A DNA stretch of 64,000 nt from Isoptericola sp. AK164 (GTDB lineage Bacteria > Actinomycetota > Actinomycetes > Actinomycetales > Cellulomonadaceae): NCBI RefSeq assembly GCF_029643425.1, contig NZ_CP119106.1, positions 2,976,001 to 3,040,000 on the forward strand. The letters run 5' to 3'. Under the pieces are notes generated by a model. That model saw only the letters and a list, made by a program, of their open reading frames with translations, was not told the DNA's origin and ran no database searches. Below are positions 16,961-60,291 of the stretch, piece by piece; the stretch's first letter is position 1, and each line of letters starts with the position of its first letter. The position numbers and the translations under genes were made by a program.

Positions 16961-17026
16961 TCGTTGTGGGCATGAAATCTGCAGGTCTTCCCCGGGGAAG
17001 ACCTGCAGATTTCATGCCCACAACGA
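16961..17026. repeat. Perfect 66-bp palindrome, copy A of a dispersed repeat
   Basis: Two 33-bp arms (16961-16993 and 16994-17026) are exact reverse complements with no loop, centred on CCCCGGGG. The arm contains GTGGGCATGAAATCTGCAG, which recurs at 42641 and 58131. It lies between converging genes (stops at 16943 and 17055), so it can act as a bidirectional terminator. Confidence 0.9.
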
Positions 17027-20273: not shown

Positions 20274-21034
20274 CGGAACCGGCAGCTGCCGACGGCGACT
20301 CACCGCACGCACCGGAGCCCGGGCGGGTGACCGCCGTCGTCCCGCTGCGCGACGGGGCGAGCGGCAAGTCGCGGCTGGCCACGGCGCTGGAGCCCGCGGC
20401 CCGACGGCGGCTCGTGGTCGCCCTGGCCCGGCACGTGCTGGGGGTGCTCGCCGACGCCGCGTCGGTGGGGCGGGTCGTCGTGGTGACGGCGGACGTCGAC
20501 TTCGCCCGCGAGGTGCTCGACGACGGCCCGGGTCCTGTCGGCAGTCCGTCGTCGACGCGGCACTTCGAACTGCCGCGTCGACGACGAACTGTCGACGTGA
20601 TCGCGGAGCCGCCCGGCCGCCCCGGGCTGAACGCGGCGCTGGAGCACGCCCGGCGGCACGTCGCGGGCGACGCCGGCGACGCGGACGGGCCCGACGGCCC
20701 CGACGCCGACCGGCTGCTCGTGGTGCACGCCGACCTGCCGCTGCTGACCCCGGCGGACGTGGACGCGGTCGCCACCGCGCGGGCCGACGTCGTCGTCGCC
20801 ACGGACCGGCACGGTACGGGGACGAACCTGCTGGCCGTCCCCCGGGTCGGCGACCACGCCTTCCGGTTCGGCGCCGGGTCCCGCGCCGCCCACGAGGCCG
20901 AGGCCGCCCGGCACGGGCTGCGCGCCGCCGTCGTGCTGCGCCCGGGCACGGCCGCCGACCTGGACACGATCGACGACGTCGCCGAGCTCCCCCTCGCCGT
21001 CCGCGACCGGCTCGTCGGCACCGTCCGCCCCTGA
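20270..21034 (+). CDS. cofC: 2-phospho-L-lactate guanylyltransferase (CofC/FbiD)
   Basis: A 254-residue nucleotidyltransferase that makes the GDP-activated donor for CofD. The nucleotide loop is VVPLRDGASGKSRLA (about 23-37), the metal Asp is in VVHADLPLLTPADVD, and TDRHGTGTNLL follows. The start overlaps the cofD stop by ATGA, so translation is coupled. Residues 90-109 (GSPSSTRHFELPRRRRT within this stretch) are foreign to the family. They are encoded by a 60-bp near-palindrome lying between the usual VVTADVDFAREV strand and GLNAALEHA. The reading frame is kept. Confidence 0.9.
   Translation: MTEPAAADGDSPHAPEPGRVTAVVPLRDGASGKSRLATALEPAARRRLVVALARHVLGVLADAASVGRVVVVTADVDFAREVLDDGPGPVGSPSSTRHFELPRRRRTVDVIAEPPGRPGLNAALEHARRHVAGDAGDADGPDGPDADRLLVVHADLPLLTPADVDAVATARADVVVATDRHGTGTNLLAVPRVGDHAFRFGAGSRAAHEAEAARHGLRAAVVLRPGTAADLDTIDDVAELPLAVRDRLVGTVRP
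20537..20596. repeat. 60-bp near-palindrome inserted in frame in cofC
   Basis: The halves 20537-20566 and 20567-20596 are reverse complements at 27 of 30 positions, centred on TTCGAA. The length is 20 codons exactly, and the encoded stretch has no counterpart in other CofC proteins as far as I recall. It resembles a palindromic mobile repeat that landed in a loop. Confidence 0.75.
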
Positions 21035-42616: not shown

Positions 42617-42640
42617 CTCCTCGTCCTCCTCGTCTCCGCT

Positions 42641-42695
42641 GTGGGCATGAAATCTGCAGTCTCGGGCGGGTCCGGGCTGCAGATTTCACGCCCAC
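42641..42695. repeat. Dispersed palindrome, copy B
   Basis: GTGGGCATGAAATCTGCAG (42641-42659) and its near-exact inverse (42677-42695, 18 of 19) flank a 17-nt GC-rich loop. It lies between the converging MFS and FUSC-like genes. Confidence 0.85.
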
Positions 42696-42715
42696 AACGG
42701 CGTCGAGCGGCGGGG

Positions 42716-52158: not shown

Positions 52159-52488
52159 GTCCTGGTCGTCCGCGGGGACGGCAGAAACCCTCGGCACGCT
52201 CGCGTTCACGGGCGCTGCGCGCCCTCCACTTCGGGGTGGATGACGGCGTCCGGGGGTCTGTCGTCTCCACCTGCTGTGCAGTCCGCGGCGAGCGCGGCGC
52301 CCGGTGAGCACACACGGGTGGGTGGTGGGGCGTCCCGTCGCGCGGCCGTCAGGCCCGAAGTGGAGGGCGCGCAGCGCCCGTGAACGCGGCCGCGCGACGG
52401 GACGCCTCACCGCCCGCCTCAGCAGCGGGACGCGTCACCGCCCGCCCCAGCAGCGGGACGCGTCACCGCCCGCGTCAGGAGCCTGGGC
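52159..52488. repeat. Repeat-rich gap with nested long inverted repeats
   Basis: No gene is supported in this 330-bp gap. Exact 33-bp inverted arms lie at 52202-52234 and 52355-52387. Exact 19-bp inverted arms lie at 52330-52348 and 52387-52405, enclosing the second 33-bp arm. Three 28-bp tandem units follow at 52398, 52426 and 52454, starting CGGGACGC. The whole region can fold into large alternative hairpins after crp. Confidence 0.85.
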
Positions 52489-58115: not shown

Positions 58116-58129
58116 TCCCCGCAAGACCG

Positions 58130-58190
58130 CTGCGGGCATGAAATCTGCAGGTCTCCGCCGGGGAAGCCTGCAGATTTCACGCCCACAGCG
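58130..58190. repeat. Dispersed palindrome, copy C
   Basis: The arm at 58130-58152 (containing GGGCATGAAATCTGCAGG) and the inverse arm at 58168-58190 match at 21 of 23 positions around a 15-nt loop. It lies 15 bp after the LacI-type stop. Confidence 0.85.
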
Positions 58191-60230: not shown

Positions 60231-60291
60231 ATCGAGCGTCTCTGTTCCTCAGGAATCGGCGCGCGATTCCTGAGGAACAGAGTCGCTCGAT
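60231..60291. terminator. 61-bp palindrome between converging genes
   Basis: The arms 60231-60258 and 60264-60291 match at 27 of 28 positions around a 5-nt loop. The arm contains CTCTGTTCCTCAGGAATCG, less GC-rich than its surroundings and unrelated to the GAAATCTGCAG family. It probably ends both transcripts. Confidence 0.8.

Follow-up and report, generated by a model that had tools for sequence, protein, structure and literature searches.

The palindromes dispersed over the genome of Isoptericola sp. AK164 are probably one part of a two-part genetic system, in which the other part is a predicted nuclease of the DUF559/MTES_1575 type with its gene set between two copies of its cognate palindrome. 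The association of this gene with the palindromes is well supported. When homologues of the nuclease were picked by protein similarity alone and an inverted repeat was sought within 300 bp on each side, 24 of the best 30 homologue loci had repeats on both sides, 6 on a single side only and 0 on neither.

The palindrome family

The window, by which we mean the whole stretch of 64,000 nucleotides that was analysed, covers positions 2976001-3040000 of a genome that is a single contig of 3,576,703 bases. It holds three palindromic elements, to which no strand is assigned. Element 1 (16961..17026) is a perfect 33+33 palindrome with arms TCGTTGTGGGCATGAAATCTGCAG.. at a junction of convergent genes. 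Element 2 (42637..42699), also at a convergent junction, has the arms CGCTGTGGGCATGAAATCTGCAG / CTGCAGATTTCACGCCCACAACG around a 17-nt centre, with one mismatch in a single arm. Element 3 (58128..58190) lies at a tandem-gene junction, starts 12 bp past a stop codon and has the arms CGCTGCGGGCATGAAATCTGCAG / CTGCAGATTTCACGCCCACAGCG, with one mismatch per arm, around another 17-nt centre. The initial annotation of this DNA had described three inverted pairs sharing a 19-bp arm, and all of them are present with GTGGGCATGAAATCTGCAG as the arm. It had also held chance recurrence of this arm to be unlikely, in agreement with its 6 matches in the window at up to 3 mismatches versus 0 in 100 dinucleotide shuffles. 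The placement that it gave is reproduced by our own gene caller, with all three elements right behind a stop at a distance of 12-20 bp, two of them between convergent genes and the remaining one between tandem genes. The details of the repeat itself need some adjustment. The arm is conserved, but at 19 bp it was drawn slightly too short and measures 23 nt once CGYT is included. The centre, said to vary in length and sequence, is wholly different in sequence but barely differs in length (18, 17 and 17 nt in elements 1, 2 and 3). Membership in a known terminator or riboswitch family had been raised as well; in an Rfam scan of the window the palindromes had no match above gathering score, and the sole passing match was a tRNA elsewhere in the window.

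A search of the whole genome, which had been proposed in order to see if there are more than these three copies, gave 126 strand matches to a covariance model (R1) built on 61 copies. These correspond to 63 palindromes, every one with an E-value of 6.2e-9 or better. The copy-by-copy statistics given here are for 61 of the 63, leaving out those at about 1790335 and 3221262. The 19-bp arm alone, at up to 2 mismatches, occurs 58 times forward and 58 times reverse genome-wide, with 0 matches for a reversed control. The consensus is CGYT-GTGGGCATGAAATCTGCAG-N17/18-CTGCAGATTTCATGCCCAC-ARCG with a length of about 64 bp (63-64), and both arms are found at a spacing of 36-37 bp in 61/61 copies read. 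The outer ends are CGTT/AACG in 21 copies and CGCT/AGCG in 11. Where arm positions vary they change jointly on both sides, as for one arm pair that is C-G in 49 copies, A-T in 10 and something else in 2. The centre is different in nearly every copy, yet mostly self-complementary. The consensus hairpin has 27 pairs, 15 of which have changed on both sides, and 93.3% of cells are paired versus 84.2% (sd 0.5) in shuffles, a gap that is inflated by relatedness among the copies. When partners are slid against each other pairing drops to 35-45%; this control retains the relatedness but favours a structure derived from the same sequences. The copies are not evenly spaced over the chromosome (gap CV 1.19 versus 0.97 for random positions), and their distribution over chromosome bins is uneven (chi2 20.6 on 11 df). 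The view of these elements as a REP-like family, dispersed and mostly extragenic with conserved arms and a variable centre, is right.

The window contains other long inverted repeats. A further palindrome at 60231-60291 (TCGAGCGTCTCTGTTCCTCAGGAATCG..) has a relative at L044:6752-6806, and arms similar to its own occur in I. chiayiensis (L226:18072), so that it is perhaps a member of a second dispersed family. An inverted repeat of 96 nt lies at 52320-52415, and a different one is found at the orthologous I. chiayiensis site (L232:16149-16247). Additionally, a near-perfect 30+30 palindrome (GTCGGCAGTCCGTCGTCGACGCGGCACTTC..) at 20537-20596 had no second copy in those loci of this genome that were read.

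Placement relative to genes

With a gene caller trained on this genome, the 61 copies were placed at convergent junctions (37), tandem junctions (19), divergent junctions (2) and inside predicted genes (3), the last of which rest on ORF predictions. An earlier gene caller was discarded after it called long antisense frames as genes, which had put 12 elements inside genes and 11 at convergent junctions. Convergent junctions account for 37/58 placed copies versus 54/353 of the other junctions of the same loci (p 8e-14), with the loci chosen around the elements. The median distance from a stop codon is 25 bp, and at tandem junctions the copies lie 19 bp past the upstream stop and 44 bp ahead of the downstream start.

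The terminator role put forward in the initial annotation would fit this placement at gene 3' ends, but the T-run of such a terminator is missing, as the 8 nt that follow the hairpin contain at least 4 T in 0/61 copies, whichever strand is read. One could still read the palindromes as bidirectional actinobacterial transcription terminators that work without a U-tract, with the nuclease association reflecting insulation of the nuclease gene on both sides. The strength of the hairpin, the enrichment at convergent junctions (in loci chosen around the elements) and the short distance from the stop all favour this. We nevertheless think it unlikely, given the absent T-run and three properties that a terminator does not need, namely the conserved arm sequence, the match between left and right copies and the covariation with the nuclease. 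Moreover, one locus retains in two species an arm variant in which the A/T run is reversed.

Of the two copies at L059:3970-4033 and L074:3997-4060, one lies within a predicted frame that we read as moeA-like, which in the window's genome is predicted to stay open through the palindrome. The other is in I. chiayiensis, elsewhere in the homologous stretch. At L045:4022-4426 the gene of a small predicted membrane protein is flanked by two palindromes 0.5 kb apart.

The partner gene

Among the genes found between close palindrome pairs, the same predicted nuclease recurs in three lineages. Among 990 predicted proteins of the loci then at hand, some of them overlapping, 4 are this nuclease and 4/4 lie between two palindromes; two of these are orthologous (the window's genome and I. 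sediminis). The sole DUF559 gene of the window's genome above the Pfam cut-off is flanked by the palindromes at 2850262 and 2851422, which form one of two pairs less than 1.3 kb apart among the 61 copies. This gene is broken: its two pieces are in different frames, and one of them has an internal stop. The I. sediminis gene is intact, and its stop codon falls within its own 3' palindrome (L009:1460-1523, ..PLWA and then the TGA of GGGCATGA).

The enzyme is about 290-335 aa long and consists of a part resembling the AbiEi antitoxin (about residues 40-180) and a C-terminal Vsr-like PD-(D/E)XK domain. Pfam places the C-terminal part in DUF559 or MTES_1575. Of four proteins tested, L009, L162 and L167 are above the DUF559 cut-off with L178 just below it, and only L167 is above that of MTES_1575 with L009, L162 and L178 below. 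The Pfam entry DUF559 gives the function as unknown, and MTES_1575 has been described as a novel Vsr-type REase domain (PMC3710099). PADLOC models of AbiEi match the N-terminal and middle part in 2/3 proteins tested (E 5.9e-7 and 6.4e-8), the third homologue (L199) having no AbiEi match. In the C-terminal domain D199, E203, D236, E247, D249 and H253 are invariant in 28 sequences, and these acidic and histidine residues are the predicted nuclease active site. Solved nucleases are matched weakly by profile (3hrl, E 0.017; 3r3p, E 0.4), and a single-sequence structure model was unusable (pLDDT 33). By reading of the translated loci, rather than by profile search, we noticed no AbiEii toxin gene beside the nuclease.

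Nuclease-related proteins are found in 173/221 genomes of the taxonomic family and in 132/396 genomes of the phylum. Viral contigs gave no nuclease relative, and none of 49 pattern matches in them was confirmed. Ten viral stretches (L281-L290) have palindromes with TGTGGGC..GA ends. Two distant DUF559-type genes of one genome (L291:2698-2759 and L292:1876-1987) each have a long inverted repeat at one end.

The initial annotation had looked to a RAYT-type transposase for the spread of the repeats and to an enzyme gene flanked by its own palindrome. Such a gene exists, but it encodes the DUF559/MTES_1575 Vsr-like nuclease and not a RAYT tyrosine transposase. The RAYT domain PF01797 was found in 0/18 genus genomes at E 0.001, with 5/14 control genomes positive. 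This bears directly on the reading of the palindromes as classical REP elements moved by RAYT, a Y1 tyrosine transposase. Palindromes dispersed past genes and an enzyme gene between two copies, as is described for RAYTs (PMC2817692), are what that reading expects. However, REPs are given as palindromes of 20-40 bp with a GTAG or CGTC tag (PMC3733652), and our consensus, at about 64 bp, has no such tag and ends in CGYTGTGGGC. The absence of PF01797 means that this reading fails here unless the enzyme is far diverged, and we consider it extremely improbable.

Cognate pairing of nuclease and palindrome

The association holds when the four loci that gave the idea (L150, L156, L162 and L165) are left out of the 30, with an inverted repeat on both sides in 20/26 and on one side in 6/26. 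Of the six one-sided loci, L164 is truncated by the contig end, and L176 and L177 have a repeat of another kind 170-270 bp off. For L156 and L157 the gene boundaries were placed by hand. Two further sets of homologues were hand-picked. The 20 mid-range ones had repeats on both sides in 12 cases, on one side in 4 and on none in 4, and for the 20 distant ones the numbers were 2, 8 and 10. Under nearly the same criterion, control genes of element-rich loci in three species had any inverted repeat on both sides in 24/630 cases and matching ones in 4/630. The four matching controls are two nucleases, one neighbour sharing the palindrome and one small predicted membrane protein. A Fisher p of 4e-36 was set aside, as it mixes any inverted repeat (nucleases) with matching ones (controls). 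In a phylum sample, 29 loci were obtained with a second query and examined under limits that differed a little (a score of 13.5 and, on one side, up to 750 bp). Both sides had matching palindromes in 7 of them, a single side in 6 and neither side in 16. By eye these palindromes are unlike those of the window's genome.

The palindromes also change with the nuclease. The left and right palindromes of the same unit are 0.87 similar versus 0.52 between units (38 units). Low left-right scores are seen at L158, L162 and L181, where inspection by eye shows matching arms that have an indel or are shifted in register. Protein identity is correlated with palindrome similarity (Mantel r 0.53, n=33; best of 2000 permutations 0.29), a correlation that is inflated because related species share protein and palindrome by descent. 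In another genus (G071) the nuclease homologue lies between two copies of a different palindrome with CGAGATGGCAACTCTCGGC arms in a 41-bp register, and these arms occur 40 times forward and 40 times reverse in that genome at up to 2 mismatches. Of the 19 copies read there, two of which are the nuclease flanks, 8 are at convergent, 6 at tandem and 3 at divergent junctions with 2 unplaced, and pairing in the centre is weaker than in the window's family. High copy number is not a general property, given that a third palindrome, found in the genus of G612, is present in few copies (3 and 4 arms in the G612 genome).

Within the genus of the window's genome, at least 10 R1 strand matches occur in 8/11 genomes with a close nuclease homologue and in 0/7 without (Fisher p 0.004, tallied by hand from genomes that are not independent). 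The three exceptions (G138, G144 and G149) have another palindrome type at the nuclease. Two genomes without a close nuclease have a few R1 strand matches (5 in G141 and 1 in G136). The nuclease unit is at one constant locus in several Isoptericola genomes, thus the unit itself need not move.

A repressor with many sites would give part of this pattern. In such a reading the AbiEi-like part acts from the flanking copies as a repressor of its own gene, and the copies elsewhere in the genome are immobile binding sites with a regulatory or architectural role. This has a precedent in AbiEi, which is described as repressing its own promoter through inverted repeats (PMC3985639), and two-sided units necessarily have one copy upstream within about 300 bp. 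Operators would not be expected past the nuclease gene, where the second copy is located, or at gene 3' ends, where the dispersed copies lie with only 2/61 at divergent junctions. Sister species also differ in the presence and type of palindrome at orthologous sites. Taken together this makes the operator reading quite unlikely.

Orthologous sites and exchange of types

An exact core-pattern scan of 84,980 species, with one genome per species and possibly omitting records very close to the window's genome, found the family only in Isoptericola sediminis and I. chiayiensis, in 18 stretches. Within the taxonomic family, the covariance model has matches in 33/221 genomes and 8/25 genera. The palindromes at these family-wide loci are mostly about 56-80 nt long and have related ends (CGYTGTGGGC or CGYTGAGTGC) with a lineage-specific middle.

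At orthologous sites in I. chiayiensis and I. sediminis both arms are retained while flanks and centre differ, the centre being still largely paired. Sequence identity in the flanks of orthologous loci is for the most part about 79-89%. Rare locus-specific arm variants (AAAAATGC, ATATGC and ATTTCTGC) are retained at orthologous sites as well. A copy was present in 45 and absent in 5 of 50 comparisons, a set in which many sites are counted from both sides and which is biased to presence by loci picked for holding a copy. In larger stretches of I. chiayiensis and I. sediminis, comparisons at sites of the window's genome gave a copy of that genome's own type in 8/26 and none of it in 18/26. The reverse direction gave 8/8 present, with loci again chosen for holding a copy, which favours presence.

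Differences in presence between species, together with inverted arms and dispersed copies, would also be seen for MITE-like remnants of an insertion sequence with the arms as its terminal repeats. This is very unlikely, as every copy read has both arms at the fixed spacing and the nuclease is surrounded by complete palindromes instead of single terminal repeats. No target-site duplication was seen either, in intergenic flanks that are too diverged to show one.

One palindrome type can be found in the place of another. Of 15 sites of the window's genome at which I. chiayiensis lacks that genome's own type, 7 hold a different palindrome (CGYTGTGGGCGCACNTCNTGGCCCG..), one of them read by eye only and two of them being nuclease flanks; this type also flanks the I. 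chiayiensis nuclease. A common preference for convergent junctions could be a partial source of these same-site cases, which weakens them. In a wider test 6/9 foreign copies were at sites of the window's genome, a small sample in which a 2-kb gap is crossed in one of the 6. Two sites in other genomes are further examples. At one, where the flanks are very similar, CGCTGAGTGCATGAAATAGTCGC.. is present in G122 and G111, and CGYTGTGGGCATGARATGGGCCCGG.. in G116, G117 and G113, in the same register. At the other, the first type is found in G122 and the second type in G111, with flanks 93 and 95% identical. Either type can therefore occupy a given place. The tally of types at orthologous sites (at least 86 same, at least 238 different and at least 129 none) includes repeated comparisons and nuclease flanks and served for finding examples only.

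For copies of the type of the window's genome, arm self-complementarity out of 19 positions is 17.5 in I. chiayiensis (n=15), 18.4 in the window's genome (n=61) and 18.5 in I. sediminis (n=14), in samples that are small and partly chosen by pattern. The lower value of I. chiayiensis is in line with decay in a genome whose own nuclease has a different specificity. For the inner six positions, pairing (4.3, 4.2 and 3.4 in the same order) does not follow the trend of the arms.

Proposed mechanism and significance

The layout of the palindrome is that of the AbiEi site, with two inverted arms at a fixed spacing. AbiEi is described as binding two inverted repeats, TGTTGCTTTTA-N27-TAAAAGCAACA (PMC3985639). 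In the model that we propose for the two-part system, the AbiEi-like part would read the two inverted arms, either as double-stranded DNA or as an extruded cruciform, and this would place the nuclease domains over the unread centre. As the nuclease would act on a centre that is not read, the centre would be free to vary. Cleavage in the centre followed by repair from another copy could make the palindromes spread and stay uniform, much as has been proposed for RAYT on REPs. Copies would then survive mainly past stop codons where the harm is smallest, and the palindromes may incidentally act as terminators, which would make gene 3' ends tolerant of them. Autoregulation from the upstream palindrome copy is likely in addition. 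Because the nuclease gene is broken in the window's genome, the palindrome family there is probably past renewal.

The fullest version of this model is a selfish, REP-like system of Actinomycetota in which a DUF559-type nuclease with AbiEi-like recognition drives palindrome copying or conversion at fixed intergenic sites. Tens of copies would thereby change together with the nuclease, and one type could overwrite another in place. We offer this version tentatively, with the chances close to even but somewhat against it.

DUF559 is widespread, and with a cognate DNA partner this branch of nucleases would have a role that can be tested. If the model is true, the co-diversifying recognition sequences are a natural library of enzyme-site pairs. 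The differing palindrome types at one site also pose the question of how short dispersed repeats evolve jointly.

Comparison with known systems

We found no link between DUF559 or Vsr and palindromic repeats in the open literature, judged by title and abstract opening among the matches listed, and the two-part system seems to be previously undescribed. The nearest recent work on a Vsr-like nuclease among these matches, as far as its opening describes it, concerns a Caulobacter protein (PMC12907096).

Neisseria and Haemophilus uptake sequences form terminators as inverted pairs, and they resemble the present family in being repeated inverted pairs past genes. Here, unlike there, the arms are paired at a fixed spacing in all 61 copies read among the matches listed and are not single. 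The homing endonuclease of PDB entry 3r3p (named 'mobile intron protein'), which we take to be I-Bth0305I, shares a Vsr-like domain and a selfish-looking setting, by a very weak profile match. It differs in that we saw no intron or intein here, the gene lies between palindromes and palindromes stand alone at dozens of sites.

AbiEi, the antitoxin of the type IV AbiE system, is closer in its N-terminal and middle part, by the model matches given above. Its sites are described as paired inverted repeats of 11-23 bp (PMC3985639), which may be likened to our palindrome arms. Unlike AbiEi, the present protein carries a nuclease domain, its cognate repeats are dispersed genome-wide and no AbiEii was noticed adjacent to it.

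The comparison with REP and RAYT suggests an analogous system with an unrelated enzyme. RAYT genes are described as always lying between two REPs, with REP and RAYT phylogenies that agree, and orthologous RAYT genes as staying in place while their flanking palindromes change yet remain palindromic (PMC2817692). The present system shares the many palindromes past genes, the enzyme gene flanked on both sides in 24 of the best 30 loci and the covariation of palindrome and enzyme. Its orthologous enzyme gene likewise keeps its place among flanking palindromes that change but stay palindromic. It differs in having an AbiEi-like/Vsr-like PD-(D/E)XK nuclease in place of a Y1 transposase, in palindromes that are longer, near-perfect and without the GTAG tag, and in types that differ at one orthologous site. 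If true, this would be a second, independently evolved pair of enzyme and palindrome alongside REP/RAYT.
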